64,000 nt of DNA, from assembly GCF_002080045.1 (NCBI RefSeq), contig NZ_MUIN01000002.1, positions 125,251-189,250 of the forward strand, given 5' to 3'. Of this stretch, positions 3,323 through 54,748 are shown piece after piece; position 1 is the first letter of the stretch; the number at the start of each line of letters is the position of its first letter. The notes below the pieces were generated by a model. It was not told the origin of the DNA and did not search any database. It saw nothing but the letters and a program-made list of their open reading frames with translations. The DNA is from Pseudomonas sp. Bc-h (GTDB taxonomy: Bacteria; Pseudomonadota; Gammaproteobacteria; Pseudomonadales; Pseudomonadaceae). A program made the position numbers and the translations under genes.

Positions 3323-3324
3323 GC

Positions 3325-4251: not shown

Positions 4252-4374
4252 GGCCTGCCTCCCTGAAACCACGCCGCGCTCTGAATAAGCCGCGCCGTGC
4301 AAGTCATTAATGATCCTGTGTATACGGGTGCGATCGTACTGCAACGACCGAAGCGTTCTATTCGCTTCGCTTGT

Positions 4375-4632: not shown

Positions 4633-4882
4633 AATGTGCGTTCTCTTTTATGGGTCAGTGATTCCAGCGACAAGCGGGGCAGAGATGTCGCCGCGAGTAT
4701 GAATGTTGAAACAGCCTCGCGGGGTTGGTTTAGTGTCAGTTAATCGCGGGGTGACGAACGGTTAAACAACCGAAACGGTGGTGACCACTCATCGTCACAA
4801 TCACGCTGTTGCGCCCGTCCATCGAATCATTGTGGCTACACTGTCTCCCAAGAGTACTGCCCTTAGACGTCAGGAGAACATT

Positions 4883-19393: not shown

Positions 19394-19412
19394 TTGCTAA
19401 TGGTGGTGTGCC

Positions 19413-22524: not shown

Positions 22525-22607
22525 CTTTCAACGTAATTCTTCGGAGTTCTCTAAGCTCAAGTAGGGCAGGTGAGTGGTGCGTCGTCTCGGGCAGTGAACT
22601 GGAAGTC

Positions 22608-23747: not shown

Positions 23748-23782
23748 TACGTTCAACGTAGTAAAATATTCGTTTGTTAATA

Positions 23783-23820
23783 ATAGGATCGGATAACATC
23801 TATTTATCAGACCTAATATA
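23783..23820. promoter_or_regulatory. Candidate rst recombination core between the divergent recombinase genes
   Basis: An inverted repeat GATAA (23792-23796), 7-bp centre CATCTAT, TTATC (23804-23808). The arms extend imperfectly outward (TAGGATCGGATAA against TTAGGTCTGATAA, 9 of 13 matching). Two 13-bp arms round a 6-8-bp spacer is the usual layout of a tyrosine-recombinase crossover site, and its position between tnpS and tnpT matches rst of Tn4651. The promoters of both genes must overlap it. Confidence 0.5.
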
Positions 23821-23834
23821 GCCTGAGGTGCCCT

Positions 23835-30642: not shown

Positions 30643-31290
30643 TAAATTGGACGGTTCAAAGCACGCAGGCTGATGCGCGAACTGGAACTGGAACTGGTCA
30701 GCAAGCAGCCGGGATCCCACGCCTATAAAAAAGCAACAGTCGAGCGGCCTGATATACCAAATGTCTTGAACCGGGAGTTTGATGTCGAAACCCCTAACCA
30801 GGTATGGTGTGGCGACATCACCTACATCTGGGCACAGGGGAAATGGCACTACCTTGCGGTTGTCATCAATCTCTATGCTCGCCGGGTGGTGGGCTGGGCG
30901 TTATCGGAAAAGCCGGATTCAGGCCTGATGGTGAAGGCGCTGGACGTGGCTTACGAGCAGCGCGGCAAACCTCAAAGCCTGCTATTTCACTCCGACCAGG
31001 GATCGCACGATGGCAGCCGCAACTTTCGCCAATGGCTGTGGCGCCACCGCATGCGCCAGAGTATGAGTCGCCGAGGAAACTGCTGGGACAATGCGCCGAT
31101 GGAAAGGGTGTTTCGCAGCTTGAATACAGAATGGATCTCAACCACCGGTACATGACCGGCCAGCAGGCTCAGAGAGACATCAGCCAGTATCTGATGCATC
31201 ACTATAACTGGATCCGACCTCATCAATTTAATTAAGGGTTGGCCACGGCGAACACTGAAAAAAAACTTAAAACCGTGTCCGGGATCAGCT
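30643..31290 (+). pseudogene. IS3-family transposase OrfB fragment
   Basis: A decayed insertion-sequence transposase. The frame opens straight after a stop (FKARRLMRELELELVSKQPG) and so lacks the first part of OrfB and all of OrfA. The integrase core is present: WCGDITYIW (first Asp), HSDQGSHDGSRNF (second Asp) and GNCWDNAPMERVF (Glu). A single-base deletion near 31149 shifts the frame after TEWISTTG; the continuation YMTGQQAQRDISQYLMHHYN lies in another frame. A further stop interrupts it at PHQFN. It cannot encode an active transposase. Confidence 0.88.
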
Positions 31291-33610: not shown

Positions 33611-33782
33611 GGCCGATTCTGTTGAAAAAGTTGGTTTTCCCAAACGGCCAGAAGACTGATCGGTGAAAGCCCCTTTTTCGCGCACTGCTACGTGAAATCT
33701 GAGTCTGAATGCTTTTGCGGCGATTCACGCTCGCACTTTTCTGCCGTGGAAACCGCATTCGACTTTTTCAACAAAATCGGCC
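33611..33782. repeat. 172-bp element with 21-bp terminal inverted repeats (MITE-like)
   Basis: The left end GGCCGATTCTGTTGAAAAAG (33611 on) and the right end, read inward as GGCCGATTTTGTTGAAAAAG, match at 20 of 21 positions. The interior has no gene. The right half is homologous to the repeat at 26345-26440. I see no obvious target duplication. It may be a non-autonomous element mobilised by a transposase not present here, or the fused ends of a deleted insertion sequence. Confidence 0.6.
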
Positions 33783-33837
33783 GATATCTGCCGGTTGAAG
33801 AAAATTGGCTAGACCAGCATGCCTTCACCCTTGGTTA

Positions 33838-34170
33838 ACTTCGCGAAGCGGTCCACGCCCTACGAAACCCGCTTCGTGGAATTGGCTCAGAGACACCTAC
33901 CGACCTGAAGCTGCTCGTCTGCAGCGGCAAAAATAAGACAGAAGTGTATGCATTTAGGGTGGATACTCAATCCGCCTCATTACCTGCGTGGTGGTCGCGA
34001 ACGACCGCCATGGTGCCGAATGTATCCACTGCTAAACCTGCTCAGGAGAACAACGCGTGGCCTTCAGGCGACTGCACAGTTGCCAGTCGACGCGATGGTA
34101 ACGGTCATATCGGATCAAAAATTTAGCGCAGCCGTTACAAAGCTTGCGGACACCGTCAAACAGCATCAGG
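33838..34170 (-). pseudogene. DCC-family (DUF393) thiol-disulfide oxidoreductase-like pseudogene
   Basis: Minus-strand reading gives LMLFDGVRKLCNGCAKFLIR and YDRYHR, the start of a DCC-family protein. A one-base loss then shifts the frame to RLATVQSPEGHALFS, stop, GLAVDTFGTMAVVRDHHAG, another stop and a recognisable tail (PIPRSGFRRAWTASRS). The first Cys of the family's DGVCxxC motif is Arg here. With a frameshift and internal stops, it is dead. Confidence 0.7.
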
Positions 34171-34368
34171 GTTTTACCAAATGCCAGAAGCGGTGCGGGA
34201 GTAAACGAATCAGAGGGGCGGGCACTGCTGCGGCCTCTGCGCAGCGGCAATTGGGGGGCATCGTATGGCGGGATCGCTTTGCAACGAAATGATCATTATT
34301 GAATAGCCCTAACGCGAAGAGTGAGCGGCTGTAGAGCAGCGAATTATCTATAGATTCTGCCAGCGTGT

Positions 34369-34387
34369 ATTTGCCAGACTGGCATAT
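34369..34387. promoter_or_regulatory. Palindrome in the TetR gene promoter, candidate operator
   Basis: TGCCAG-A-CTGGCA (34372-34384) is a perfect inverted repeat, extended to 19 bp with one mismatch per arm (ATTTGCCAG-A-CTGGCATAT). It lies 31 bp ahead of the TetR ATG at 34415, a typical autoregulation position. Its right half continues as GGCATATTCAT, repeated ahead of the CoA-transferase operon at 35229. A second palindrome, ATCTATAGAT, lies at 34346-34355. Confidence 0.5.
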
Positions 34388-34414
34388 TCATACGGATCTT
34401 AATTGGAGCTGTAA

Positions 34415-35125
34415 ATGGCAAGACACAGACCGGCAAGCGAGGGGGGGTATCAGCGTGGTGAAGAGACCCGTGCTGCCATTCTCCTGGCCGCCGTCGCAGT
34501 GTTCGGAGAACGTGGGTACGAGGGAGCCTCCACCCGTGACATCGCCAAGGCTGCCGGGGTCAACGCGCCTTCCATTCAGTACTACTTCGATAGCAAGGAA
34601 GGCGTGTATCTCCAGTGCGTCGAGCATCTGATTACGCTGCTCTGGCAGAAGATGGGCGCGGCAGTTGACGCCGCCGAACGTGCGGTTGGCGACGGTACCT
34701 CGAGCGATCAGATGTTGATCGAGGGCGCTATCGGGATTCTGGGAGCGGTGCTCTCGACAACTAAAGACACTACACAGATTAGGGCGTGGCGCATTTTTTT
34801 CGATCGTCAGCAGGCGGGTTTGTGTCCTCCAAGCGCCACCGTGATTTTTGAGCGGAAATTCAAAGCCCGCATCGATTCCGTCATGCGGCTTCTAATTGCT
34901 CGTCTGTCTGGATTCGAGGTTGGAGACGAGCGCACGATCCTTCATTCCACGGCGTTGTTCACTCAAGGGTTAGCGTTTCGTGCTCACAAATCACGGCTGT
35001 TGTCAGCGCTGAACTGGAAAGAAGTCGATCATAAGGAAATGGAATTGATCAGAAGCATCGTGCTTACTCAGGCCCGATTTACGCTGGAAGGGCTGGCCCG
35101 ACAGAGTTTATCCCCGCCGCATTAA
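34415..35125 (+). CDS. TetR-family regulator with CerR-type C-terminal domain
   Basis: A 236-aa repressor-type protein. The N-terminal helix-turn-helix is complete (TRAAILLAAVAVFGERGYEG, STRDIAKAAGVNAPSIQYYF, DSKEGVY). The C-terminal ligand domain resembles the CerR/DUF1956 group. GGAG precedes the ATG. It stands 240 bp ahead of and in the same direction as the CoA-transferase operon, with a shared sequence element in both promoters, so it most likely controls that operon and itself. Confidence 0.9.
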   Translation: MARHRPASEGGYQRGEETRAAILLAAVAVFGERGYEGASTRDIAKAAGVNAPSIQYYFDSKEGVYLQCVEHLITLLWQKMGAAVDAAERAVGDGTSSDQMLIEGAIGILGAVLSTTKDTTQIRAWRIFFDRQQAGLCPPSATVIFERKFKARIDSVMRLLIARLSGFEVGDERTILHSTALFTQGLAFRAHKSRLLSALNWKEVDHKEMELIRSIVLTQARFTLEGLARQSLSPPH

Positions 35126-35228
35126 ATTGCCCCTGTCAATCTATGCGTCGCGTCTTCGGAATGCCCTTTGAACGAATGCTCTGGGCGTGATTCAGGCTTC
35201 CCTTTGTATACATGCCTTTCCTATACCG

Positions 35229-35239
35229 GGCATATTCAT
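35229..35239 (+). promoter_or_regulatory. GGCATATTCAT element shared with the TetR promoter
   Basis: The same 11-mer occurs at 34381-34391 in the TetR operator. Here it is part of a wider dyad, ATGCC at about 35213 and GGCAT at 35229, 130-155 bp ahead of the CoA-transferase start. Candidate second binding site of the same regulator. Confidence 0.4.
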
Positions 35240-35368
35240 GTGGTTTATTTCCTATTGAGAACCCTATTCCTACAGTGGAATCGTGCTATTCCTGAATCCC
35301 ATTGAGGCGCTCGCCACTCCGAGGCGGAGACGGGCCTCGCAGCGGAATCAAGGTTCGGGTACGAAAAG

Positions 35369-37588
35369 ATGAGAAATGGAGTACTGGATTCGTTACGCGT
35401 GATCGAGTTTTGCGAGGGCATCGCCGGTTCAGCGGCGGGGCTGCAACTCAGCGAAGCCGGTGCCGAGGTGATCAAGGTCGAACTGGCCGCGCGACCGTTC
35501 AGGCGTAAGGGCGCTCTGTTTTCCGTGCTCGACCGTGGCAAGCGCAAGGTATCGCTTTCGTCGTTCGAAGAGTTGTTGACGCTGTTGAACGGCGCAGATG
35601 TGTTCATTCACGAACTCACCCCCGCGCAGGCGAGCGCAAACGGGGTTGATGATGACTCGTTGAGGCGGCTGTTTCCGTCGCTGGTTGTCTCGGCGATTGG
35701 CGGCTGGCCACAGCGTCATGCACTGGCCGAGGCGGTGCCGAGGGAGACATTGGTGCTGGCGCGTCTGGGCTTGCTTGATGAGCAGCCGGGGCACCGCACC
35801 GGCCCAGTGTTCGTGCGCATGCCCTATGCGAATTGGATCGCCTGCTGGTTATGCGTGGTCGGCGTCATGGCGCGGCTGATTGCGCGGGACCGGGATGGCC
35901 GTGGCGGTGCCGCTCATACCAGCCTTGCGCAGGCGGCTCTGGTTCCCATGAGCATGCACTGGTCCAGAGCCGAGAGCCCAACGCCGGTTTTTGCCAAGGG
36001 ACTGGACAAGCACATTCCCATTCCGTTGCATCGCTGCAGTGATGGGCGCTGGCTGCATGTGCATTACTCGCCGGACAAGGCGCCGCTGATGGCGCAGGCG
36101 CTTGAGCGGTTGGGCCCCGATGAAGTGACGAGACTCAATGCAGCCTGCCCGGAGAGTCACGTAGCGCCCAACTTCGGCGCCAACCGGAACATTTTTGCCA
36201 CGCGCCCGGCTCAAGAATGGGTGGAGCACCTATGGCAGTCGGATGTGGCGGCGCAGATCGCCGCACCCTTTGGCGCCATTTATTTCGACGAGCAGGCAAA
36301 GGCTAACGGCTACGTCGTGCAAGTCGACGATCCGCTGCTGGGCAATACTCTGCAGCCCGGACCTTGTTATTCGGTGGAACCGGCTGCGAGGTTGCGCGGG
36401 CCGCTGAGTATTCAGAGCGAAGATATCGCCAGTATCGAAGTTCGTTCGCCGAAGCCCGCCGTGGCCGACACGCCCCCTTGTGATCTACCGCCGCTGCAAG
36501 GCCTGAAAGTGCTGGATCTGGGCGCCTATCTCGCCGGGCCGTTCGCCTGCATGCTGTTGGCCGATCTGGGCGCGGATGTGATCAAGGTCGAGCCCCCGAG
36601 CGGCGATGCCATGCGCCGCCTGGAGCGGACGTTCAGCGGCACCCAGCGCGGCAAGCGCGGCGTTGCAATGAAGCTCGGCGATCCAGCGACCCAGCCAGTG
36701 GTCGAGGCGCTGGTGCGCTGGGCCGATGTCGTCCATCACAACATGCGCCTGCCTGCCGCACACAAGCTCAAGATCGATTACGAACATCTCAAGGCGCTGA
36801 ATCCGACACTTCTCTACTGCCACGTCAGCGCCTACGGCCCCCAAGGACCTCGTGCGGACTGGCCGGGTTTCGACCAACTCATGCAAGCGTCCACCGGTTG
36901 GGAAACCGCCCAGGGAGGCGAGGGTAATCCACCCCAGTGGCTGCGTTTCGGGGTCGGCGATTTCTTTGCAGGTCTTTCATCGCTGTACGCGCTTTTGCTG
37001 GGGGTGTATGCCCGCAACCGTACAGGAAGAGGGCAGATGGTCGCCTCTTCGCTGTTGGGCGCGACGCTGTTGACGATGGCCGAAGCCGTGGCGCTGGACG
37101 ACGGTTCTATCAGCGCAGTGGAGGTGCTGGACAGCGCGCAGGCCGGGGTGAGCGTGACACATCGCCTCTATTTGTGTGGCGATAACGCCTGGCTGGCAGT
37201 GGCGGCACTAGAAGACGACGAGGCTCAGCGTTTGCTGACGTTGTTGGGCGCCAACCCCGGTGTCTGGTTTCTGACCCGTACGCGTAACCAGGCGATCACT
37301 CAACTCAAGCGCCACGGCATTGCGGTCGAAGCCGTGCGTGAAGCGCAACTGGATGCCTTCCTCGATGACCCGTTGAACGCAGCTGCTGGCCTGCACGCCC
37401 ATTATCCGCATCCCGTCTATGGGCACCTGCAGCAGGTCGGTGCGTTCTGGGACTTCGCCGACATGCCACTGGCGCTCGATCGCGCGCCGCCAGCGCTGGG
37501 TCAGCACAGTCGCGAGGTACTGATGCAAATGGGATTTCACGACGTCCAGCAGCAGCGTCTGATCGACGCCGGGTTGTTGCGCGTATGA
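35369..37588 (+). CDS. Double-domain class III CoA-transferase (CaiB/BaiF) homologue
   Basis: A 739-aa protein with two tandem CaiB/BaiF domains (about 1-355 and 375-739). The second half opens with the family signature LKVLDLGAYLAGPFACMLLA, DLGADVIKVEPPSG. The first half is more divergent (LRVIEFCEGIAGSAAGLQLS, EAGAEVIKVE). Class III enzymes use an Asp, in a VDVSLLDA-type motif, to form an acyl-anhydride. Here the aligned positions are His183 (AAHTSLAQA) and Ala559 (MVASSLLGA), so neither half seems to have the nucleophile. It may be an inactive or differently working homologue, or work as a CoA-binding partner. It heads an operon with the SDR, ACAD, kinase and second SDR. Confidence 0.88.
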   Translation: MRNGVLDSLRVIEFCEGIAGSAAGLQLSEAGAEVIKVELAARPFRRKGALFSVLDRGKRKVSLSSFEELLTLLNGADVFIHELTPAQASANGVDDDSLRRLFPSLVVSAIGGWPQRHALAEAVPRETLVLARLGLLDEQPGHRTGPVFVRMPYANWIACWLCVVGVMARLIARDRDGRGGAAHTSLAQAALVPMSMHWSRAESPTPVFAKGLDKHIPIPLHRCSDGRWLHVHYSPDKAPLMAQALERLGPDEVTRLNAACPESHVAPNFGANRNIFATRPAQEWVEHLWQSDVAAQIAAPFGAIYFDEQAKANGYVVQVDDPLLGNTLQPGPCYSVEPAARLRGPLSIQSEDIASIEVRSPKPAVADTPPCDLPPLQGLKVLDLGAYLAGPFACMLLADLGADVIKVEPPSGDAMRRLERTFSGTQRGKRGVAMKLGDPATQPVVEALVRWADVVHHNMRLPAAHKLKIDYEHLKALNPTLLYCHVSAYGPQGPRADWPGFDQLMQASTGWETAQGGEGNPPQWLRFGVGDFFAGLSSLYALLLGVYARNRTGRGQMVASSLLGATLLTMAEAVALDDGSISAVEVLDSAQAGVSVTHRLYLCGDNAWLAVAALEDDEAQRLLTLLGANPGVWFLTRTRNQAITQLKRHGIAVEAVREAQLDAFLDDPLNAAAGLHAHYPHPVYGHLQQVGAFWDFADMPLALDRAPPALGQHSREVLMQMGFHDVQQQRLIDAGLLRV

Positions 37589-37620
37589 ACACCGAGCGGG
37601 TCATCGAGAGGAAAAACATC

Positions 37621-38358
37621 ATGGGGGAACTGGATTTCAGCGGCAGGACTGTGCTGGTCATCGGCGGCTCCAGCGGTATTGGCAATGGCATCGCCCGCAG
37701 CTTTCTTGAGCGGGGTGCCCAGGTCCATGTGTGGGGCACACGTGGCTGCGCAGCCGACTATGCCACTTCCCAGGACTCCGATCTCGAGGGGTTGCATTAC
37801 CACCAGGTCGACGTGGCTCAGGCTTCGCAGATCGATGCCGCACCCGTGCCGTTCGAACGGCTGGATGTGCTGGTTCAGGCGCAGGGCACGGTGCTGTACG
37901 ACCGGCAGGAGTTCGAGCCCGAAGGCTTTCGCCGGGTACTCGACGTCAACCTCACCAGCCTGATGATCTGCGCGCAAAAATTTCATGCGCACCTCAAGGC
38001 AGCCAGGGGAGCAATGATCGTTATCAGTTCCGCGGCGGCTTTTCATTCCACGCGCGGCAATCCGGCCTACAACGCCTCAAAGACCGGAGCGTTCGGGCTG
38101 ACCCGAACCCTGGGCGAGGGATGGGCACGCGATGGCATCCGGGTCAACGGTATAGCGCCGGGCCTGGTGGAGACCAAGCTGACGCGAATCACCACCGACA
38201 ACCCCAAACGCCTTGAAGGCGCACTTCGCGCCATTCCGCTGGGGCGTCTTGGAACTCCGCAGGACATGGCCAATGTCGCGCTCTTTCTCGCATCGCCCTT
38301 GGCCGGTTACATGCTCGGCCAGACGTTGCTGGTCGACGGCGGAATGCTGCTGGCTTGA
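37621..38358 (+). CDS. SDR family oxidoreductase
   Basis: A 245-aa classical short-chain dehydrogenase. Cofactor motif GGSSGIGNGIA near residue 16; the catalytic residues Ser, Tyr and Lys lie in ISSAAAFHSTRGNPAYNASK; the C-terminus GYMLGQTLLVDGGM is typical. I chose the ATG at 37621 because AGAGGA lies before it; an in-frame ATG at 37585 overlaps the CoA-transferase stop. Probably oxidises a hydroxy group on a pathway intermediate; substrate unknown. Confidence 0.92.
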   Translation: MGELDFSGRTVLVIGGSSGIGNGIARSFLERGAQVHVWGTRGCAADYATSQDSDLEGLHYHQVDVAQASQIDAAPVPFERLDVLVQAQGTVLYDRQEFEPEGFRRVLDVNLTSLMICAQKFHAHLKAARGAMIVISSAAAFHSTRGNPAYNASKTGAFGLTRTLGEGWARDGIRVNGIAPGLVETKLTRITTDNPKRLEGALRAIPLGRLGTPQDMANVALFLASPLAGYMLGQTLLVDGGMLLA

Positions 38359-38388
38359 CTCACGGCTGCGAACAGACAAGGAGGGCCC

Positions 38389-39690
38389 ATGGCCTGGGAT
38401 TTTGAAACCGACGCCGATTTTCAGGCAGAACTGGACTGGATCGACCACTTCGTTCGCGAGGAAGTCGAGCCCCTGGAACATTTATTGGGCAGCCCTTGGA
38501 ATATCCACGATCCGCTGTTCAAGCGGCTGGTTCCTCCTCTCCAGGAGCAGGTACGCGAACGTCGCCTGTGGGCCTGTCATCTGGGGCCTGAACTGGGAGG
38601 GGCTGGCTACGGGCAGGTTCGCCTGGCATTGATCAACGAGATTCTCGGACGCGCATTGTTCGCGCCCATTGTGTTCGGCTGTCAGGCACCGGATTCCGGC
38701 AATGGCGAGATTCTCGCGCATTTCGGCAGTGCCGAACAGAAACGCCGCTATCTGCAACCGCTACTCGATGGCTCGATCGTCTCCTGTTTCGCCATGACCG
38801 AACCGCAGGGAGGCGCGGACCCGAATGTCTTCACTACGCGAGCCACCCGTGAGGGAGATCAATGGGTGCTCAACGGTGAAAAGTGGTTCGCATCCAATGC
38901 GCGTTACGCCGCTTTTCTGATCGTCATGGCCGTCACCGATCCCGAACTCGGCGCCCACGGTGGAATGTCGATGTTCATCGTGCCAGCCGATACGCCGGGA
39001 CTGATCATCGAGCGCAACGTGGGTATCGCCGACGACCCACAGGCGACCCATGCCTACCTGAAATTCGACGATGTGCGGCTTTCTGCCAACAGCATGCTCG
39101 GTGAGCCAGGCCAGGCCTTTGTGGTGGCGCAGGTCAGACTGGGTGGCGGCCGCGTGCACCATGCGATGCGCGTGATCGGCCAGGCCCAAAAAGCGCTCGA
39201 TGCCATGTGTCAGCGGGCCTTGTCGCGCAGCACGCAGGGCAGCCGGCTGGCAGACAAGCAAATGGTCCAGGAGAAAATCGCCGATTCCTGGATTGAGCTT
39301 GAACAATTTCGCCTGTTGGTCATGCGTACCGCATGGCGTATCGACAAGTATCAGGATTACCTCAAGGTCCGCAAAGACATTGCCGCCGTCAAAGCCGCGA
39401 TGCCCAAGGTCCTGCACGACATCGCCGCACGGGCGTTGCAGGTCCATGGATGCCTTGGGGTGAGCGACGAGATGCCTTTCGCCGGGTTGATCATTCGCTC
39501 CTTTCAAATGGGCCTGGCGGATGGCCCGACCGAGGTGCACAAAATTACCCTGGCAAAGCAGCTGCTACGCGACTACAGCCCCGAAACCGAGATGTTTCCA
39601 GCCTGTCACCGGCCTACTGCGGCCCGTGCCGCGCGCGCGAAATTTCACGAGGTGTTGCAGCCCCTGTCACGTGCGGAAGGTGATGCATGA
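38389..39690 (+). CDS. Acyl-CoA dehydrogenase, ACAD10/11-like
   Basis: A 433-aa FAD-dependent acyl-CoA dehydrogenase-fold enzyme. N-terminal helices are followed by the FAD-binding segment CFAMTEPQGGADPNVFTTRA and GEKWFASNARYA. Near the C-terminus is LADGPTEVHKITLAK, where Asp378 takes the place of the catalytic Glu of medium-chain enzymes. The DGPxEVH form is characteristic of the ACAD10/ACAD11 branch, whose members (with LvaC of P. putida) remove a phosphate from 4-phosphoacyl-CoA to give an enoyl-CoA. The start has GGAGGG. The stop overlaps the kinase start by 4 bases, as expected of an ACAD-kinase pair. Confidence 0.9.
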   Translation: MAWDFETDADFQAELDWIDHFVREEVEPLEHLLGSPWNIHDPLFKRLVPPLQEQVRERRLWACHLGPELGGAGYGQVRLALINEILGRALFAPIVFGCQAPDSGNGEILAHFGSAEQKRRYLQPLLDGSIVSCFAMTEPQGGADPNVFTTRATREGDQWVLNGEKWFASNARYAAFLIVMAVTDPELGAHGGMSMFIVPADTPGLIIERNVGIADDPQATHAYLKFDDVRLSANSMLGEPGQAFVVAQVRLGGGRVHHAMRVIGQAQKALDAMCQRALSRSTQGSRLADKQMVQEKIADSWIELEQFRLLVMRTAWRIDKYQDYLKVRKDIAAVKAAMPKVLHDIAARALQVHGCLGVSDEMPFAGLIIRSFQMGLADGPTEVHKITLAKQLLRDYSPETEMFPACHRPTAARAARAKFHEVLQPLSRAEGDA

Positions 39691-40739
39691 CCGGCACTGG
39701 CTGGGAGGCACTGGTCGATATCAACCGACTGGCTGGCTGGATGGATCGGCAAGGGTTGGGTAGCGGGGCGATCGAACACCCTCGGCGCCTGACCGGAGGC
39801 ACCCAGAACCTGTTGCTGCACTTTTTGCGCGAGGGACGGGAATACGTGCTGCGCCGCCCGCCAATGCATCCCCGTCAGGACGGCAGCAAGACGATTGCAC
39901 GCGAAGCGCGGGTGCTCGCCGCTCTGGCCGGCACGTCGGTGCCCCATGCGGGATTGATCGCTGCCTGTGACGACGTTTCGGTTCTGGGGGCCGGCTTTTA
40001 TCTCATGGAGCCTGTCGCGGGCTTCAATGCGTCTGCTGGGATGCCCGCGCTGCATGCCAACGACCCCGGCATTCGTCGACAAATGGGTTTTGCCATGGTT
40101 GACGCGTTGCTTAGACTGGGCGCGGTCGACTACCGGCAGGTGGGGCTCGATGGTTTCGGCAAACCCGAAGGCTTTCTGCAGCGTCAGGTTGAGCGCTGGT
40201 TGTCGCAACTGCAGGGCTATCAGGATTACCAAGGCTGGCCCGGAACCGAAGGTCTGCCGGGGCTGAACATCATCGCCCAATGGCTGGAACAGCACTGTCC
40301 GGCGCAGTTTGCTCCGGGAATCCTGCATGGCGACTATCACCTCAACAACGTGATGTTCAGCGATACCACCGCCCAAGTCGTTGCAATTGTCGATTGGGAA
40401 CTGGCGACCATCGGCGATCCGTTGCTGGACCTCGGCTGGCTGCTGGTCACCTGGCCTGGCGCAGATGGGCGGGGGGCGGGAACCATTCATGTACAGCCAT
40501 GGGAAGGCTTTGCCACTGCGCAAGAGTTGGTCGAGCGCTATCGCATCGGCACTGCACGCAACCTGGACAACCTGGACTGGTACATCGTGCTCGCCGGTTT
40601 CAAGCTCGGTATCTTGCTCGAAGGCAGTTATGCGCGGGCCTCTGCCGGGAAATCCACAATGGACACCGCATTGACCCATCACGCCAGCGCCGTGCGCCTT
40701 TTCGAACAGGCCCGGATGCGCATCGCGAAGGAATCATGA
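39687..40739 (+). CDS. Aminoglycoside-phosphotransferase-fold kinase, ACAD10/LvaA-like
   Basis: A 350-aa APH-family kinase. It has the nucleotide-binding start (LTGGTQNLLLHFLREGREYV, LRRPP), the Brenner motif HGDYHLNNVMF with catalytic Asp, and the metal-binding IVDWELATIGDPLLDLGW, the form seen in ACAD10 and LvaA. Relatives phosphorylate the 4-hydroxy group of acyl-CoAs. The ATG overlaps the stop of the ACAD10/11-like dehydrogenase (ATGA). Together I infer conversion of a 4-hydroxyacyl-CoA to an enoyl-CoA. Confidence 0.9.
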   Translation: MTGTGWEALVDINRLAGWMDRQGLGSGAIEHPRRLTGGTQNLLLHFLREGREYVLRRPPMHPRQDGSKTIAREARVLAALAGTSVPHAGLIAACDDVSVLGAGFYLMEPVAGFNASAGMPALHANDPGIRRQMGFAMVDALLRLGAVDYRQVGLDGFGKPEGFLQRQVERWLSQLQGYQDYQGWPGTEGLPGLNIIAQWLEQHCPAQFAPGILHGDYHLNNVMFSDTTAQVVAIVDWELATIGDPLLDLGWLLVTWPGADGRGAGTIHVQPWEGFATAQELVERYRIGTARNLDNLDWYIVLAGFKLGILLEGSYARASAGKSTMDTALTHHASAVRLFEQARMRIAKES

Positions 40740-40762
40740 AGGCTTTGACCGGAGGCAGGTAA

Positions 40763-41533
40763 ATGGCAACTGACAGGCAACTCGTCGGCAAGAAAATCAT
40801 CGTCACCGGCGGTGCACGGGGTATCGGCGCAGCGGTGGTCAGCGCCTATGTGGAGCAGGGGGCTCACGTCATCAGCCTGGACATTGGTAACCGCATCGAC
40901 GTCGAGGACGAGCAAGGGCCGGGATGGGCTTTTCACCGTCATTGCGATATCGCCCAAAGCCGGTCGGTCGACGAGGCGTTTGCCTGGGCTGCCGAGCGAC
41001 TGGGCGGTCTGGACGTGCTCGTGCATGCAGCCGGCATTGCACCGAACGCCATGGCGCAGGATATCGAACTGGATCAGTGGGAGCAGGTGTTCGCGGTGAA
41101 TGCCAGGGGTACGTTCCTGACCAATCGGGCAGCGCACGCGCTGATGAAAGAATCGGGCGGCCGCATCATCAATTTCGCCTCTGCCGCCGGTGTCATCGGT
41201 CAGCCGGGGAAGGCGCACTACGCCGCGAGCAAAGGTGCCGTGCTGGCCTGGACTCGGACCGTTGCCCGTGAGTGGGGGCCGCTGGGCATTACCGTAAATG
41301 CCATTGCCCCGGCCATGTGGACACCCATGTACGACGCTACGAGAGCGAGCATGAACCCGGAGCAGCTTCAGCATCACGACGCCTTCATGGCAACGCACAT
41401 TCCTCTGGGTGGGCGGCTCGGTGATGCGCGTAAGGACCTTGCGCCCATGCTGGTGTTTCTCGCGGGCGACGGATCACGTTTCATCACCGGGCAAACCCTG
41501 CCCGTGGACGGCGGTATGCTAATGCTGAGCTGA
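40763..41533 (+). CDS. SDR family oxidoreductase
   Basis: A 256-aa classical SDR. TGGARGIGAAVVSAYVEQGA is the cofactor site; the catalytic segment is INFASAAGVIGQPGKAHYAASK with Ser, Tyr and Lys; the C-terminus is GSRFITGQTLPVDGGMLM. GGAGG lies ahead of the ATG. The end overlaps the convergent TetR gene by 15 bases. By position it could act like LvaD, the SDR of the levulinate pathway, but sequence alone does not show the substrate. Confidence 0.92.
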   Translation: MATDRQLVGKKIIVTGGARGIGAAVVSAYVEQGAHVISLDIGNRIDVEDEQGPGWAFHRHCDIAQSRSVDEAFAWAAERLGGLDVLVHAAGIAPNAMAQDIELDQWEQVFAVNARGTFLTNRAAHALMKESGGRIINFASAAGVIGQPGKAHYAASKGAVLAWTRTVAREWGPLGITVNAIAPAMWTPMYDATRASMNPEQLQHHDAFMATHIPLGGRLGDARKDLAPMLVFLAGDGSRFITGQTLPVDGGMLMLS

Positions 41534-42163
41534 GTCTGCGAAGGGTTCGACCGATGTGGGCAGCAGCACACCGTGGATCATCTTGGTGTGCAATCCCACG
41601 GTGGCGGTCAGGGAAGGGGTGTGGCCGGGGCTGTGCCAGCTGCTGATCTCGTTGAGCATCGCCAGCATGCACGGGACCATTGTCTTGATGGGCACTTTCA
41701 TGAAGCGCTCCTGGTCCATGCCAGCCTGCAGGATAGCGCCGAGGCGCTCGGCGGTTTCATCGCGCAAGGCTTGAACACTTTTCTGCTGGCAGGCCGTCAG
41801 GCAGCGGTACTCCAGACGCGCGAGCAACCAGCGTTGGCGATGTTCGACGGTGAACGCGACGTGGCTCTTGATGAACGCGTTCAGCGCCTTGAGCGGGTCA
41901 CACAGGATCAGCAGCTTTCCTGGCAGGACCTGCAGCATGTTGGTCTCATACTCCTCGATCAACTCGAAAAGCAGCGCAGCCTTGCTCTCGATGTGGTTAT
42001 AAAGCGAGCCCGCCTGCATGCCGACAGCGGTCGCCAGCTGACGAAGGCTGACAGACTGAAACCCGTACTCGACGAACAACTGCAGGGCTGTGGTGCGGAT
42101 CTGTTCGTGGGGCGAAAGTGGCGCATCGGTTGGCATCACGTCTTGCGTTGCGAGAGCCTGCAT
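41519..42163 (-). CDS. TetR-family regulator
   Basis: A 214-aa regulator with an N-terminal helix-turn-helix (IRTTALQLFVEYGFQSVSLR, QLATAVGMQAGSLYNHIESK) and a FadR/KstR2-like all-helical C-terminal domain. I chose the ATG at 42163 because GAGGTG precedes it; a GTG at 42205 would add 14 residues without a better site. It lies downstream of the large ferredoxin oxidoreductase gene in the same direction (34 bp apart) and converges on the SDR operon. Confidence 0.88.
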   Translation of the reverse strand: MQALATQDVMPTDAPLSPHEQIRTTALQLFVEYGFQSVSLRQLATAVGMQAGSLYNHIESKAALLFELIEEYETNMLQVLPGKLLILCDPLKALNAFIKSHVAFTVEHRQRWLLARLEYRCLTACQQKSVQALRDETAERLGAILQAGMDQERFMKVPIKTMVPCMLAMLNEISSWHSPGHTPSLTATVGLHTKMIHGVLLPTSVEPFADSAQH

Positions 42164-42239
42164 GAATTGCACCTCGGAAAAGAACTGTGGACTGTGAATA
42201 GACACCAGACGGCCTGCTGACCGCCTGGCGCAGCTTGGC

Positions 42240-45200
42240 TTACAACTGGGTCACGCGAATCCGTGCCGGCTGCACTTCGATCACCGCGCCCGCACCTGCG
42301 GTTTGCGCGTCACCGCCATGCCATTGCTCCAGCAATACGGCAAGACGCTGCCGCGCATGGGTCAGATAGCGCTCTCGTACGGGGCCAAAGCCACGCACTG
42401 CGTCAGGCAGGCTTGCGAGTGAAACGGCGAGTTCCAGATTGTCATTGCTCAGCTGGTCAAGTAGCTCGTCGAGGACGGACTCGTAATCGGCCAGCCATTG
42501 CAGTTCGACTTTGCGTTCGTGGGTACGAGCAAAAGGGTCGAGCCAGGTGTTGCGCAGAAACTTGAGTCCGGCCAGCACCTTGAAGCCCGTCATCATCCAG
42601 GGCCCGTAACTGCTTTTTTTCGGTGCCAGACCATCGACCACCTTGTGCAGCAGTGGTGGGGCGAGGTGAAACCGCAGACTGTAATCACCTTCGAAACCCG
42701 CTTGAACCTTCTTCAGGAAATCGCCGTTGCTATACAACCGCGCGACTTCATATTCGTCCTTGATCGCCAAGACCTTGAAGTAATCACGAGCCACTGCTTC
42801 GGTCAGTACGCCGGGTTTGCCCGTCAGCGCAGTTTCGGCCTGAATGAAGCGCTCCACGCCCTTACGATAGCGGCTGGCGTAAGCGCCATTCTGATAGTTC
42901 GTGAGGTAATCGACGCGACGCTCGATGCGTTGTTCGAGGGTTTGCACCACTTCACGATCGGTTCCCTGCACCTTGAGTTTTTCCAGCCGTGAAACCAGGC
43001 GCGGCATATCCACTGCAGCGCGCCGGCCCCAGAGAAAAGCCATGCGATTGAATTCCACCGCCGTGCCGTTGAGTTCGATGGCTTGCATCAACGCCGGCTC
43101 TCCCACAGGAAGCCAGCCTTTCTGATAGGCGAAGCCGAGCATGAAGGTATTGGTCGCGATGGAGTCGCCCAGCAAGGCGGTGGCCAGCTCACTGGCATCG
43201 ATGAACACCGTGCCCTGTGCGCCCACGGCCTCGCTGATTTGCCGGGACATGTCGGATGTACGAAACACCGGGTCGGGATGGCTGAGCAGGTCGCCGCTTT
43301 CAGCCTGCCTGGCGAAGCTTCGCACGAATGCGCTGGTCACGCTCTGTTCGGAGTTGATCAGCGCATGGGTCACTCCCTGACGCAGTTTGACCAGCGTTTC
43401 GGCATTGGCGCTTACCACCAGATCGCAGCCGAGCAGCAAGTCTGCTTCGCCCTCGGCAATCCGCGGCGCATAGAGTTGCTCCTGACGTTCGGCAATGCGG
43501 ATGTGCGACCAGACTGCGCCACCTTTCTGCGCCATGCCTGCCATGTCCAGATTCAGCACGCCTTTGCCCTCGATGAACGCCGCCATCCCCAGCAAAGCGC
43601 CGATGGTGACGACACCTGTGCCGCCAACCCCCGTCACCAGAATGCTGTAGGGCTGATCGAGCGGCTGAGTCAGCGGGGCAGGCAGTGCCCACTGCTCTTC
43701 CGCGCTGCTGGCCAGAGCCTTGGGTTTGCGCGGCTTTGCGCCTTCCACGGTGACGAAGCTCGGGCAAAAGCCCGAAAGGCAGGTGAAATCCTTGTTGCAA
43801 GACGATTGGTCTATTTCCCGCTTGCGTCCGAACTCGGTCTCCACCGGTACTACCGACATGCAATTGGATTGACTGCTGCAGTCGCCGCAGCCTTCGCATA
43901 CTGATTCGTTGATGATCACTCGACGCGCCGGATCGGCGAACTTGCCGCGCTTGCGCCGACGACGTTTTTCGGCAGCGCAGGTCTGGTCGTAGATCAGGGC
44001 GGACACGCCAGGGTATTCACGAAGCTGTTGCTGGATTTCATCCATGCGTTCGCGGTGGTAGACGGGCACATCCGCGGCGAGGTCGGTAATGTCCTCGTAG
44101 CGCTCGATCTCGTCGGTCACGACGACGATTCGCTGCACACCCTCGGCGGCGAGTTGACGGCTGATCCGGGAGACACTCAAGGTGCCGTCGACAGGCTGCC
44201 CGCCGGTCATGGCCACTGCGTCGTTATAGAGAATCTTGTAGGTAATCGGCACTTTCGCCGCGACGGCTGCACGAATCGCCAGCAATCCCGAATGGAAATA
44301 GGTGCCGTCGCCCAGGTTGGCGAATACATGAGGCGTACGGGTGAACGGCGCCTGGCCGATCCACGCGGCACCTTCGCCGCCCATCTGGCTGAAGGTCTGG
44401 GTCTGCGGATAGATCCACGCCGCCATGTAATGACAGCCGATGCCAGCCAGCGCGCGGCTGCCGTCGGGGACCTTGGTCGAGGTGTTATGCGGGCAGCCAG
44501 AGCAGTAATGGGGCACACGCTCCATCAGGTTGGCGGGGGCGCTGCAATTTGCCAGTTGCGCATCCAGTACCGCCAGCCGCACCTGCAGCGGGCCGCTCTG
44601 GTGAACGCGCAATATGCGTCGCGCCAGGGCGCGAGCGATCTGCGACGGCGTGAGCTCGCCCACGGCGGGAAGCAACCAACCGGTATGGGGCAGGCTCCAT
44701 TCGCCTTTGTCGTCGAATTTGCCAACGATGCGCGGCCGAACGTCTTCGCGCCAGTTGTAGAGTTCTTCCTTGAGCTGATACTCCAGCAAGTGGCGCTTTT
44801 CCTCCACCACGATGATCTCTTCCAGTCCTTCGGCGAAGTGCCGCACACCCTCGGCGTCCAGCGGCCAGATCATCCCTACCTTGTAGACCCGTAGCCCGAT
44901 CTGTTGGGCGAGGGCATCGTCGATACCCAACATCTTCAGCGCCTGACACACGTCCAGATAGGACTTGCCGGAGGTGATGATGCCGATCCTGGGTTTCTCG
45001 GCGTCCATGACCACCTGGTCGAGCCGGTTGGCACGCGCGTAGGCCAGCGCTGCATACAGCTTGTGTTCCAGCAGGCGTTTTTCCTGAGCCAGTGGCGGGT
45101 CGGGCCAGCGAATGTTCAAACCGCCCTCGGGCAGGGGAATGTCCGGAATGACCGGCTGCACCCGGTCCGGGTCAAGGTCGACAATGGCGGCGCTTTCTAC

Positions 45201-45812
45201 GGTATCGGCTACCGCCTTCAACGCCACCCAGCAACCGGAGTAGCGCGACATGGCCCAGCCGTGAAGTCCGTAGTCCAGATACTCCTGCACGCCGGAAGGC
45301 GCCAGCACCGGCATCATCACCGCCTTGAATACGTGCTCGGTCTGATGAGGCAGGGAGGAGCTGCGCGCTCCATGATCGTCGCCAGCCACCGCGAGCACCC
45401 CGCCGAATCGGGAGGTCCCTGCAGCGTTGGCATGGCGGAACACATCGCCGCAGCGATCCACTCCCGGCCCCTTGCCGTACCACATGCCGAACACACCATC
45501 GTAGGTCGCGCCTTCGAAAATGCTCACCTGCTGGGTGCCCCAGACCGAGGTCGCCGCCAGGTCTTCGTTGACGCCCGGATTGAAGACAGTGTGGTGGGCC
45601 TTCAGGTGATCGCGAGCCTTCCATAATGCCTGATCGAAGCCACCCAGAGGGGAGCCACGGTAACCGGAAATGAAGCCGGCGGTGTTCAGGCCATTGGCGA
45701 GATCGCGCTGGCGCTGCATCAAGGGCAAGCGGACCAGCGCCTGAACGCCCGTCAACAGAACCTTGCCGGTGAGCTGGACGTATTTGTCTTCCAGGGACGG
45801 TGTTGCGGACAT
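42240..45812 (-). CDS. Indolepyruvate ferredoxin oxidoreductase family protein (fused)
   Basis: A 1190-aa fusion of the alpha and gamma parts of 2-oxoacid:ferredoxin oxidoreductases. The first 600 residues have the TPP-enzyme layout, with VPHYCSGCPHNTSTKVPDGS and the TPP-binding ANLGDGTYFHSGLLAI. Two ferredoxin-like iron-sulfur segments follow (CEGCGDCSSQSNC and SCNKDFTCLSGFCP). The gamma domain starts at ILVTGVGGTGVVTIGALLGM, and a C-terminal DUF6537-like region ends the protein. Relatives oxidatively decarboxylate aryl-pyruvates or branched 2-oxoacids to acyl-CoA. Its place here suggests a 2-oxoacid intermediate. Confidence 0.93.
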   Translation of the reverse strand: MSATPSLEDKYVQLTGKVLLTGVQALVRLPLMQRQRDLANGLNTAGFISGYRGSPLGGFDQALWKARDHLKAHHTVFNPGVNEDLAATSVWGTQQVSIFEGATYDGVFGMWYGKGPGVDRCGDVFRHANAAGTSRFGGVLAVAGDDHGARSSSLPHQTEHVFKAVMMPVLAPSGVQEYLDYGLHGWAMSRYSGCWVALKAVADTVESAAIVDLDPDRVQPVIPDIPLPEGGLNIRWPDPPLAQEKRLLEHKLYAALAYARANRLDQVVMDAEKPRIGIITSGKSYLDVCQALKMLGIDDALAQQIGLRVYKVGMIWPLDAEGVRHFAEGLEEIIVVEEKRHLLEYQLKEELYNWREDVRPRIVGKFDDKGEWSLPHTGWLLPAVGELTPSQIARALARRILRVHQSGPLQVRLAVLDAQLANCSAPANLMERVPHYCSGCPHNTSTKVPDGSRALAGIGCHYMAAWIYPQTQTFSQMGGEGAAWIGQAPFTRTPHVFANLGDGTYFHSGLLAIRAAVAAKVPITYKILYNDAVAMTGGQPVDGTLSVSRISRQLAAEGVQRIVVVTDEIERYEDITDLAADVPVYHRERMDEIQQQLREYPGVSALIYDQTCAAEKRRRRKRGKFADPARRVIINESVCEGCGDCSSQSNCMSVVPVETEFGRKREIDQSSCNKDFTCLSGFCPSFVTVEGAKPRKPKALASSAEEQWALPAPLTQPLDQPYSILVTGVGGTGVVTIGALLGMAAFIEGKGVLNLDMAGMAQKGGAVWSHIRIAERQEQLYAPRIAEGEADLLLGCDLVVSANAETLVKLRQGVTHALINSEQSVTSAFVRSFARQAESGDLLSHPDPVFRTSDMSRQISEAVGAQGTVFIDASELATALLGDSIATNTFMLGFAYQKGWLPVGEPALMQAIELNGTAVEFNRMAFLWGRRAAVDMPRLVSRLEKLKVQGTDREVVQTLEQRIERRVDYLTNYQNGAYASRYRKGVERFIQAETALTGKPGVLTEAVARDYFKVLAIKDEYEVARLYSNGDFLKKVQAGFEGDYSLRFHLAPPLLHKVVDGLAPKKSSYGPWMMTGFKVLAGLKFLRNTWLDPFARTHERKVELQWLADYESVLDELLDQLSNDNLELAVSLASLPDAVRGFGPVRERYLTHARQRLAVLLEQWHGGDAQTAGAGAVIEVQPARIRVTQL

Positions 45813-45934
45813 GGCGTTCTCCGGTCTTGTTATCTGCCTGCCTTCGAGGGCAGAGCTGTTGTGGCGCCGAGTCTGGCAACGGGGGCGCGGATCGTAAAAT
45901 CACAAAATTGCACCGGCGCTATTTGAAAAACCGA

Positions 45935-45950
45935 TACCTGAAGCCAGGTA
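45935..45950. promoter_or_regulatory. Palindrome between divergent operons, candidate operator
   Basis: TACCTG-AAGC-CAGGTA is a perfect 6+6 inverted repeat in the 238-bp divergent region between the ferredoxin oxidoreductase gene and the quinone oxidoreductase gene, about midway between both starts. It could bind the LysR regulator encoded at 46981 or one of the TetR proteins. Confidence 0.45.
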
Positions 45951-46050
45951 CCTAACGTAACGCATTAAAATATGAGACACAATCACGAAATCTGTTCTAC
46001 TATTTCGTTCGAATCGATTGCTGACTACAACAACAAGAGGAGTCCGATCC

Positions 46051-46977
46051 ATGCGAGCTGCTGTCATTCACGAACGCAATGCCCCACCTGTCGTCGAGGA
46101 TTTTCCCGAGCCACAACCCCAGGACGGTTGCGTGCTGATCGATATAGACACTGCCGGGCTGGGTGGCTGGGATGTCCTTGGCGCCTACCGGCTGGGCGTC
46201 AGCTATCCCTGTGCCATTCGAGGCGAAGGCGTCGGTTGCACGGTAGATGGCAAGCGCGTGTACTTCGGAGAACGTTCGGTGCAGCCATTCGGCGCCTGGG
46301 CAGAACGCACCCTGGTGCCGATCGAAGAGGTCTGGAACGTACCGGACGACGTGGATGACAAGACTGCGATCAGCATGGGCATTGCAGCGACAGGTGCGGT
46401 CGTGCCTCTGGAGCTGGCGAACATTCAGAAAGGCGAAAAAGTATTGATCCTGGGCGCGACCGGAACCCTGGGGTTGATTGCCTTGCAACTGGCACGGCTT
46501 CTGGGTGCCGGGCGCGTCGTGGGTGCTGCCCGGTCCGCTGAAGCCTTGGCGGGGCTCAAGTCCCGAGGGTTCGCCGATGAAGTCGTACGCCTTGGAGGGG
46601 ACGATGACAGTGCTGCCTTGAAAGACGCGGCGGACGGCGGCTTCGACGTGGTCCTGGATCTGGTGTGCGGTCAACCGCTGCTGTCGTCGCTGAAAGCCAC
46701 CAACCGTGGCGCGCGGATCATGACGATCGGCACCGGTGCCGGACGCAAGATCGAACTGGACATCGCCGACCTGCTGTTTCGCAACCTTTCCTGTATCGGC
46801 ACCGGTCAACGACCTCCGGCGGACCGTCAGCAGATCTGGGAGCGTCTGCTGCGCACTGCGCGGGAACAGCAGATTCACGTCGATTACGCTGACTACACCC
46901 TGGAGCAGGCAGATCAGGCCTGGGCCGATCAGGTCTCAGGTCCGCACGCCAAGATCACTGCGCGGATTCGCGGTTGA
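46051..46977 (+). CDS. MDR-superfamily oxidoreductase (quinone oxidoreductase type)
   Basis: A 308-aa medium-chain reductase without zinc ligands. The N-terminal GroES-like fold (MRAAVIHERNAPPVVEDFPE) is followed by the NADPH site VLILGATGTLGLIALQLARL near residue 130. AAGAGGAG precedes the ATG at 46051; an earlier in-frame ATG at 46018 lacks a site. It probably reduces an enone or a quinone, and the LysR gene follows after 3 bases. Confidence 0.88.
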   Translation: MRAAVIHERNAPPVVEDFPEPQPQDGCVLIDIDTAGLGGWDVLGAYRLGVSYPCAIRGEGVGCTVDGKRVYFGERSVQPFGAWAERTLVPIEEVWNVPDDVDDKTAISMGIAATGAVVPLELANIQKGEKVLILGATGTLGLIALQLARLLGAGRVVGAARSAEALAGLKSRGFADEVVRLGGDDDSAALKDAADGGFDVVLDLVCGQPLLSSLKATNRGARIMTIGTGAGRKIELDIADLLFRNLSCIGTGQRPPADRQQIWERLLRTAREQQIHVDYADYTLEQADQAWADQVSGPHAKITARIRG

Positions 46978-46980
46978 CGG

Positions 46981-47892
46981 ATGGCGCGAACCAGCGACGT
47001 CTCCCTGCGTCAGTTGCGCTACTTCGTGGCCGCAGCCGACGCGGGTCAGTTCTCTCAGGCAGCATTGAGGGTTCACGTGTCGCAATCGGCGGTGACCGCC
47101 GCGGTGCTGCAACTCGAAGAGGTTCTGGGGGTAAGTCTGTTCGATCGGCTGCCTCATGGCGTCGCGCTGACAGCCGAAGGGCACAAGTTCGTGCAGCATT
47201 CGCGGCATATTCTGGAGACGCTGCAAGACGCCTTGAGTGAACCGCTGTTCCTGAGCCATGCCATCGCCGGGAGCCTGCGGGTCGGAGCGTCGTATACGGT
47301 GCTCGGCTATTTTCTGCCGTCGTTGCTGGCAAGGTTCAAGCGCAGCTATCCGCAGATTGAAGTCGATCTGCTGGACCTTGACCGCGTGAACATTGAAAGC
47401 GCTGTCGCCCAGGGCGACCTCGATCTGGGATTGACCATCGTCTCCAACACCCAGCACCTGCACGTTTTCGAACACCGCGTGCTGATCCGTTCACCCAGGC
47501 GTCTTTGGCTTTCGAACCAGCACCCCTTGGCGAGCGAGCCCTTACCCCGTTTGGACGATGTCGCGGAGCATGCGTACATCCTCGCCACGGTGGATGAGGG
47601 GGAGGTGTCCACCGAGCGTTACTGGCAGGAAAAAGGCCTGACGCCCCGGGTCGCGTTTCGCACCTCATCCATGGAAGCGCTGCGCGGGTTGGTGGCCCAT
47701 GGATTCGGGGTGACGATTCTATCCGACATGCTCTACCGGGCCTGGTCGCTGGAGGGCAAGAAAATCGATATCCGCCCGCTGGCCGACGCGGTTCCGCCCA
47801 TGGAGCTCGGGTTGATCTGGCACCCCCATAAAAGCCTGAGCGAGCCGGCGCAGGCCTTCCGGCAATTTTTGATCATGGCCTGCACCGGTTGA
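46981..47892 (+). CDS. LysR-family transcriptional regulator
   Basis: A 303-aa regulator with an N-terminal winged helix-turn-helix (LRQLRYFVAAADAGQFSQAA, VSQSAVTAAVLQLEEVLGVS) and a full effector domain (GSLRVGASYTVLGYFLPSLL and later GFGVTILSDMLYRAW). It is intact, unlike the LysR fragments at 33 kb. It follows the quinone oxidoreductase gene almost immediately and precedes the amidohydrolase gene by 89 bp, where a CCCGGC/GCCGGG hairpin (47918-47937) may separate transcripts. Confidence 0.93.
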   Translation: MARTSDVSLRQLRYFVAAADAGQFSQAALRVHVSQSAVTAAVLQLEEVLGVSLFDRLPHGVALTAEGHKFVQHSRHILETLQDALSEPLFLSHAIAGSLRVGASYTVLGYFLPSLLARFKRSYPQIEVDLLDLDRVNIESAVAQGDLDLGLTIVSNTQHLHVFEHRVLIRSPRRLWLSNQHPLASEPLPRLDDVAEHAYILATVDEGEVSTERYWQEKGLTPRVAFRTSSMEALRGLVAHGFGVTILSDMLYRAWSLEGKKIDIRPLADAVPPMELGLIWHPHKSLSEPAQAFRQFLIMACTG

Positions 47893-47981
47893 CCTTGACG
47901 TCCTTGTTCGGTAACTGCCCGGCGCTGCAATGCCGGGTATCAACCGTGAGCCTGGATCATTACAACAAGAAGGAGAAGACG

Positions 47982-49010: not shown

Positions 49011-49022
49011 ATGCGCCATTGC

Positions 49023-49042
49023 GAGCCGCGCCGACGCGGCTC
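49023..49042. terminator. Bidirectional hairpin between convergent genes
   Basis: GAGCCGCG-CCGA-CGCGGCTC is a perfect 8-bp stem with a 4-base loop, between the ends of the amidohydrolase gene and the convergent SDR gene. There is no long T-run on either side. Confidence 0.55.
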
Positions 49043-49057
49043 GTTCCCCATCAGGGC

Positions 49058-51999: not shown

Positions 52000-52029
52000 C
52001 AAGTCCAATAAGAATCGGAGTAAGTGTGT

Positions 52030-53394: not shown

Positions 53395-53518
53395 GAAACA
53401 GACGGTTCTGCCATGAAAGCCAGCCCGGGTGCGTTTCACTCTCCCGGGTCTTTCGATCGAGCCGTTGAGCAATGCCATCGGGCGACCATTCAAGGTCGTC
53501 CGCATGAGGACAATAATA

Positions 53519-54679: not shown

Positions 54680-54748
54680 GTCTGGCAACGCATTGCAATT
54701 GCAACGACAGCTGTCTGGCTGGCAAGCATCTTCAACGGGAACGCAGCG

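Follow-up and report, generated by a model that had tools for sequence, protein, structure and literature searches.

The 64,000-nucleotide stretch of DNA from Pseudomonas sp. Bc-h analysed here (contig NZ_MUIN01000002.1, positions 125,251–189,250; the whole stretch is called the window below) carries a gene for an acyl-CoA dehydrogenase (ACAD; 38389–39690, + strand) which overlaps a gene for a kinase of the APH fold (39687–40739, +). We consider it fairly probable that this pair forms the centre of a cassette of five genes that turns a 4-oxo or 4-hydroxy acid into a β-oxidation intermediate, within an island for the breakdown of conifer resin acids of the abietane type (dit island). The kinase would act on a 4-hydroxyacyl-CoA, and the dehydrogenase, which is ACAD11-like, would eliminate phosphate from the 4-phosphoacyl-CoA. 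Judged from its sequence, the pair appears to be a new deep variant of the known kinase–ACAD chemistry, in a testable setting.

Diagnostic residues and phylogenetic position of the pair

The two genes encode proteins of 433 (ACAD) and 350 (kinase) amino acids. A preliminary description of this DNA had pointed to an ATGA overlap between them and to three motifs, all of which were found as quoted: the ATG of the kinase gene sits inside the ATGA at 39687–39690, so that the stop codon of the ACAD gene overlaps the kinase start; LADGPTEVH occupies residues 376–384 of the dehydrogenase; and HGDYHLNN occupies residues 214–221 of the kinase, in which IVDWELATIGDP is present too. The same arrangement was looked for among 80 named relatives of the dehydrogenase (the best-scoring among the matches listed). 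In 43 of them, a gene for a kinase that shares 40% identity or more with the window kinase stands within 6 kb of the ACAD gene, and in 23 the stop and start codons of the two genes overlap by 4 bases (19 ATGA, 3 GTGA and 1 TTGA), which confirms that the pairing is not due to chance.

Pfam assigns the dehydrogenase to Acyl-CoA_dh_1 (1.6e-29), dh_M (5.4e-24) and dh_N (5.4e-10), and the kinase to APH (1.1e-38); NCBIfam matches of both proteins all fall far under the curated cut-offs. The closest PDB structures by sequence are 4hr3 and ACAD11 for the ACAD, and 9o56, 3dxp and ACAD11 for the kinase. AlphaFold models were obtained with a mean pLDDT of 85 (ACAD) and 91 (kinase), and in a fold search with the ACAD model 4hr3 and then ACAD11 ranked first.

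Residues R626, H634 and R637 of mouse ACAD11, together with its catalytic D753, are described as common to ACAD10/11 and LvaC and absent from other ACADs (PMC12440821). By alignment, the equivalents in the window ACAD are R250, H258 and R261 (codons within 39136–39171, +), which are putative phosphate-binding residues, and D378 (39520–39522, +), an Asp replacing the catalytic Glu. The helix-breaking proline of ACAD10/11 (human ACAD11 Pro463; PMC11342911) corresponds to Pro93 (38665–38667, +). R250, H258, R261 and D378 are kept in 140/140 related rows and occur together in 0/11 ordinary ACAD rows; the related rows, which were picked by score (>200 bits to the window ACAD or to L004), consist of the query, two PDB chains and 137 keyed ORFs (120 unique ORFs, 104 distinct sequences). 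A cleaner control alignment, without the ordinary ACADs of L008 and L009 and with L092_18578 identical to L010, gave all markers in 4/4 ACAD11-type rows (window ACAD included) and in 0/6 ordinary rows. Pro93 is retained in 128 of the 140 related rows and hence is not universal; Pro101 of a QAPD motif (38689–38691, +), a marker of both clades that was picked here and is unnamed in the papers, is found in all 140. All six marker columns show no variation across 24 aligned sequences of the window ACAD clade. By these residues the window ACAD can be counted as an ACAD10/11–LvaC type in the broad sense, with the residues of the predicted phospho-acyl-CoA pocket present.

The kinase has the residues that mark the LvaA and ACAD10/11 kinases: HGD..N, the D of DWE, the α-C Glu and an equivalent of Arg176, the last contacting CoA in a modelled ACAD11 kinase complex (PMC12440821). 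The catalytic Asp and Asn (Asp216 and Asn221 of the HGDYHLNN loop; 40326–40349, +), the α-C Glu and the Arg176 equivalent (RRERHDND pattern) are kept in 77/78 rows (65 different), the window kinase included. Aminoglycoside resistance was considered as a function and rejected: the APH(3') model scores 25 bits versus a cut-off of 205, and the protein clusters with kinases of the ACAD11 type.

Two ACAD trees (58 rows; 25 rows with other outgroups), with mouse ACAD11 and M. abscessus 4hr3 as references, gave the same three groups: ordinary ACADs, an ACAD11/4hr3 group and the group of the window protein. The 58-row tree flagged long ordinary branches, and the 25-row repeat leaves out row ord_L092_15473. 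Support in the latter is 100/100 for the window group and 99/97 for the ACAD11/4hr3 group, which also contains a second ACAD of the same genome, and the ordinary ACADs lie outside. Members of the window clade in the 58-row tree come from Pseudomonadota, Actinomycetota, Myxococcota and Acidobacteriota. In both trees the window ACAD falls outside the narrow ACAD10/11–LvaC clade; its placement in these alignments is that of a deep sister clade of ACAD11, neither ordinary nor inside the ACAD11 clade. The label 'ACAD10/11-type' used in the preliminary description is thus apt for the active site (R250/H258/R261/D378) and not for the clade, which is a sister group (100/100). Placement with ordinary ACADs, named beforehand as the outcome that would undo the proposal, was not seen.

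The kinase tree splits like the ACAD tree with weaker support (SH-aLRT 92 and 93). At L104 and L106 a window-type ACAD is paired with a kinase of the other type. At L133 (Pseudomonas capeferrum, 731–5030), a window-type kinase gene (58%) and a gene like that of the first short-chain dehydrogenase/reductase (SDR) of the cassette (65%) stand near a canonical ACAD11-type ACAD, so the two clades appear to exchange partners. Because ACAD and kinase types cross-pair at these three loci, a shared chemistry is suggested. The phosphorylate-and-eliminate route known for levulinate and 4-hydroxy fatty acids appears to have a second deep bacterial branch.

The five-gene cassette and a proposed pathway

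The gene order of the cassette is fused CoA transferase, SDR, ACAD, APH-fold kinase, SDR. The first gene (35369–37588, +; three stretches matching Pfam CoA_transf_3) encodes a fused double-domain family III CoA transferase of 739 amino acids, the putative activation enzyme. A stretch resembling PGFD, which we take to be the motif of such enzymes, was seen by eye in its C-terminal half only, and the N-terminal CoA transferase III domain may be inactive. SDR1 (37585–38358, +; 257 amino acids, YNASK) adjoins the ACAD gene and is a candidate 4-oxo reductase, and SDR2 (40763–41533, +; 256 amino acids, YAASK) is the last cassette gene; both were assigned by Pfam and by comparison of loci. Genes for the CoA transferase, SDR1, the kinase and SDR2 all lie within 6 kb of the ACAD gene in 23 of the 80 loci, and those for the CoA transferase and kinase in 24.

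The pathway that we propose would run as follows. The fused CoA transferase would form a thioester; one of the two SDRs would reduce a 4-oxo to a 4-hydroxy group (the role of LvaD); the kinase would phosphorylate the 4-hydroxyl of the acyl-CoA; and the ACAD would take the α proton via Asp378, with FAD but no net electron acceptor, and expel phosphate to yield a 2-enoyl-CoA. All of these chemical steps, and the origin of the substrate from a resin acid, are inferred, the steps by analogy with the levulinate pathway (lva). There, the combined action of a ligase and an SDR gives 4-hydroxyvaleryl-CoA, which is phosphorylated by LvaA with LvaB and loses the phosphate again through LvaC (PMC6692424). 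As to the reductase, SDR2 resembles the SDRs encoded next to two canonical kinase genes marginally more than SDR1 does, at 34% only, and SDR4, which is encoded outside the cassette, outscores both against one such neighbour; from sequence, either SDR1 or SDR2 may be the 4-oxo reductase.

If this mechanism applies, it limits the structure of the intermediate, which would have a thioester, a hydrogen on the α carbon and an oxygen on the γ carbon. The C-18 carboxyl of resin acids is attached to the quaternary C-4. The resin acid's own carboxyl is ruled out as the thioester because its α carbon has no hydrogen; the mechanism needs one, and therefore the thioester would be on a later carboxyl, made by ring cleavage. 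A ring A/B remnant or an isopropyl-bearing piece of ring C (5-methyl-4-oxohexanoate type) is chemically possible as a substrate, and both are ideas only.

The steps of dehydroabietic acid degradation after the dihydrodiol are described in PMC13063091 as not established, with products beyond compound 4 unidentified and function tested for only a minority of dit genes. A review (PMC6891630) cites the earlier detection of 2-isopropylmalic acid and of a decarboxylated product oxidised at C-3; a 4-hydroxy acid, which would point to the cassette, is not among them. Among the literature matches listed, none by title or abstract links a kinase–ACAD pair to resin acids, and a mention in the original dit papers is possible. 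The cassette thus supplies candidate genes and a candidate mechanism for dehydroabietic acid breakdown beyond the dihydrodiol. We tentatively propose, as an idea short of probable, that cassette-bearing strains carry abietane breakdown past ring cleavage through a phosphorylated, ring-derived 4-hydroxyacyl-CoA, which would be the first such step for a terpenoid and would be catalysed by a new kinase–ACAD clade sister to ACAD10/11.

The resin-acid island and alternative explanations

The window is linked to a dit cluster downstream by a cytochrome P450 gene (62576–63874, +), whose product is putatively CYP226/DitQ-like on the basis of Pfam, of relatives encoded beside a ring-hydroxylating dioxygenase and of co-occurrence. 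The same contig (C2, contig coordinates) carries P450 genes at 187826 and 217679, Rieske dioxygenase α and β genes at 206163 and 207623 and a BphC-type extradiol dioxygenase gene at 198189, that is, two CYP226-like P450s with Rieske and extradiol dioxygenases on one contig. Downstream of the window there are also genes for an FAH-family protein, a CoA ligase, a 3-hydroxyacyl-CoA dehydrogenase and a thiolase. This set fits a dit cluster, the dit and CYP226 names being inferred via P. abietaniphila ATCC 700689 and strain LB400. The host is very near the former (L011; 96.9% DNA identity over 15.9 kb), which we take to be strain BKME-9. On chromosome 3 of LB400 there is a dioxygenase gene at 604744, and the ACAD gene (~640998) lies between P450 genes at 616615 and 653929; this strain is known for its dit cluster and, by a title cited in PMC6891630, for two CYP226 P450s.

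Co-occurrence was analysed in 348 Pseudomonas genomes, with the five best candidates per genome scored and the ACAD accepted at E 1e-130 or better. The ACAD was found in 17 genomes, 12 with at least 79% identity and 5 with 58–60%, and the P450 pair in 18. All 12 genomes with the closer ACAD have both P450s, and in each the window-type one is encoded 24–46 kb from the ACAD gene on one contig; none of the other five has the pair. Fisher's test gives p ~3e-18 for the 12 genomes and 2e-14 for all 17, rough values since the genomes are related.

Several observations weigh against the reading that the pair serves resin-acid breakdown by phosphate elimination. At the level of genomes, no ACAD passes this threshold in 6 of the 18 with the P450 pair, and three of the six (G299, G341 and G269), opened over 40 kb, showed no cassette gene. 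In G299 and G341 the gene that borders the cassette elsewhere, of the indolepyruvate ferredoxin oxidoreductase (IOR) family, is kept, and the 8.6 and 10.6 kb covered past it hold no cassette gene; the stretch of G269 has no IOR gene, so the cassette site is unseen there. All three retain the remaining island genes, from DUF1302 to FAD oxidase, and in G341 the P450 gene lies just past the stretch. The wider ACAD clade is also found in genomes without a close P450, where SDR1–ACAD–kinase sets occur without a close CYP226-like P450 (L035 in G008 and L058 in G009). The cassette seems to be gained or lost as one unit and looks accessory to dit. The claim of the preliminary description that the substrate is degraded through a 4-hydroxyacyl-CoA is partly supported: pocket and kinase residues fit it and the context is an abietane island, but the ACAD is missing from 6/18 genomes with the P450 pair, so that dit carriers do not appear to depend on the step.

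These ACAD-less and P450-less genomes, together with the five Pseudomonas genomes that have a 58–60% ACAD and no P450 pair, would suit an alternative in which the proposed chemistry holds and the dit island carries the cassette as a passenger that acts on a different substrate, such as another terpenoid or a simple 4-oxo acid. We regard it as unlikely, though deserving serious consideration, since the window-type P450 lies within 46 kb in 12/12 Pseudomonas genomes with a close ACAD, and since LB400 and a Massilia plasmid hold SDR, ACAD and kinase genes amid similar P450, SDR and IOR genes (the 21 kb examined in LB400 showed no CoA transferase homologue).

At the level of proteins, the window ACAD is only 35–36% identical to ACAD11 (fold search), a long branch separates their clades in both trees, and Ser or Ala replaces Pro93 in 12/140 rows. 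The loop after Asp378 (379–384) has a pLDDT <50, and the model is silent on its geometry. No activity reports were found for members of the window ACAD clade. For a second Arg that contacts CoA in the ACAD11 kinase model (R86), no position could be assigned on the printed sequence, and the Arg before the α-C Glu was checked instead. An LvaB-like ORF is absent beside the kinase gene, which overlaps the ACAD gene on one side and is 23 bases from SDR2 on the other; the P. citronellolis region analysed in PMC6692424 is likewise without lvaB. Finally, 37 of the 80 loci have no close kinase gene within 6 kb, some of them being contig ends.

It could be argued that the window protein is an ordinary oxidative ACAD encoded beside an unrelated kinase and that its likeness to ACAD11 is superficial: short-chain ACADs are next best by sequence and fold, and its PQGGADP loop is unlike the DVASSDAT loop of the ACAD11 group. 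However, the catalytic Asp with R250, H258 and R261 is invariant in the clade and never found together in ordinary ACADs, which lie outside it with 100/100, and 43/80 loci are linked to a kinase with ACAD11-type residues, so that this explanation is improbable. Very improbable is a kinase acting on a free, non-CoA alcohol of the terpenoid skeleton with the ACAD separate, as suggested by the 25-hydroxy steroid kinase (25-HSK), which prepares a tertiary alcohol for ATP-dependent dehydration by phosphorylating it (PMC8449060) and whose structures rank 3–5 in the fold search with the kinase model (3dxp being first), since the sequence match to 25-HSK (3.4e-9) is far weaker than those to the ACAD11 kinase (2.7e-32), 3dxp and 9o56, the Arg176 equivalent is kept and the gene overlaps that of a phosphate-pocket ACAD.

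As to the surroundings of the cassette, genes for TetR-type regulators (Pfam) lie upstream (34415–35125, +) and at its end (41519–42205, −). The IOR family gene (42240–45812, −; NF009588, 1720 bits) stands beside the cassette in many loci, and would place a 2-oxoacid oxidising enzyme inside an aerobic diterpenoid cluster. A run of DUF1302, DUF1329, BNR/YCF48-like and MMPL transporter genes (50338–57256), kept with or without the cassette, perhaps serves envelope transport of a hydrophobic substrate. A 338 amino acid ORF antisense to the P450 (62336–63352, −) has no Pfam match and is probably not a gene. Similarity to L011 spans 33779–49684, L011 extending 5.4 kb further left, and position 33779 looks like an island edge. 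Upstream of the island there are Mu/TniA-type transposase, TniQ and tyrosine integrase genes (17552–23975), and an ORF at 30673–31155 resembles an IS transposase by eye; the dit cluster may belong to a catabolic transposon (PMC13063091). Elsewhere, a second ACAD copy, 66% identical, was seen in a Pseudomonas genome that also carries the island copy (G160:C12:32292–33569). In plasmid relatives the pair occurs in other catabolic clusters; the records opened name only acyl-CoA dehydrogenase and phosphotransferase family protein, and none gives a substrate for the pair.

Comparison with known systems

The mammalian ACAD11 and ACAD10 (of which ACAD11 alone was compared) share with the window pair the combination of kinase and ACAD, the R/H/R/D pocket, the proline and the kinase catalytic residues, and ACAD11 is the first PDB match of the ACAD after 4hr3 by both sequence and fold. 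They differ in being fused in a single chain, whereas two proteins are encoded here, the window ACAD belongs to a sister clade, and the window pair is linked to a CoA transferase, SDRs and a diterpenoid island.

The lva operon of Pseudomonas putida KT2440 (LvaA and LvaC were compared by published description) follows the same kinase–ACAD–SDR logic with CoA activation, LvaD being an SDR (PMC6692424). LvaC is 56–62% identical to ACAD11/10 (PMC11342911), whereas the window ACAD is 35–36% identical to ACAD11, and lva uses the ligase LvaE where the window cassette has a family III CoA transferase. A levulinate operon was rejected as an identity for the cassette, which has no AMP ligase or LvaB ORF and a different gene order. 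Among the matches listed in a search for LvaC in Pseudomonas genomes, L108, L109 and L112 are not lva operons; further Pseudomonas loci showed canonical kinase–ACAD pairs in 3/4 and the lva order in none.

The genome also has a canonical pair (ACAD, C2:499566–500795; kinase on contig C22) with the same residue signature, 39% (ACAD) and 33% (kinase) identical to the window proteins. Unlike the window pair, it falls in the ACAD11 group of the trees and its two genes are unlinked. This ACAD looks housekeeping because it is matched in 58/59 Pseudomonas genomes. At L002 on contig C22, the canonical kinase gene stands beside an SDR gene and an ORF that is histidine-phosphatase-like by eye, its likely ACAD partner (L004) being on another contig; the arrangement resembles the LvaB-less levulinate cluster of P. 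citronellolis (PMC6692424).

The dit cluster of P. abietaniphila BKME-9 and P. xenovorans LB400 has been given as 24 (PMC10710418) or 19 genes (PMC13063091). The words 'kinase', 'phosphotransferase' and 'acyl-CoA dehydrogenase' do not occur in the main text of PMC10710418, nor does 'acyl-CoA dehydrogenase' in that of PMC13063091. The contig of the window resembles this cluster in its P450 pair and in the types of its Rieske and extradiol dioxygenases, and differs from it in the cassette, which lies 21–27 kb upstream of the window P450.

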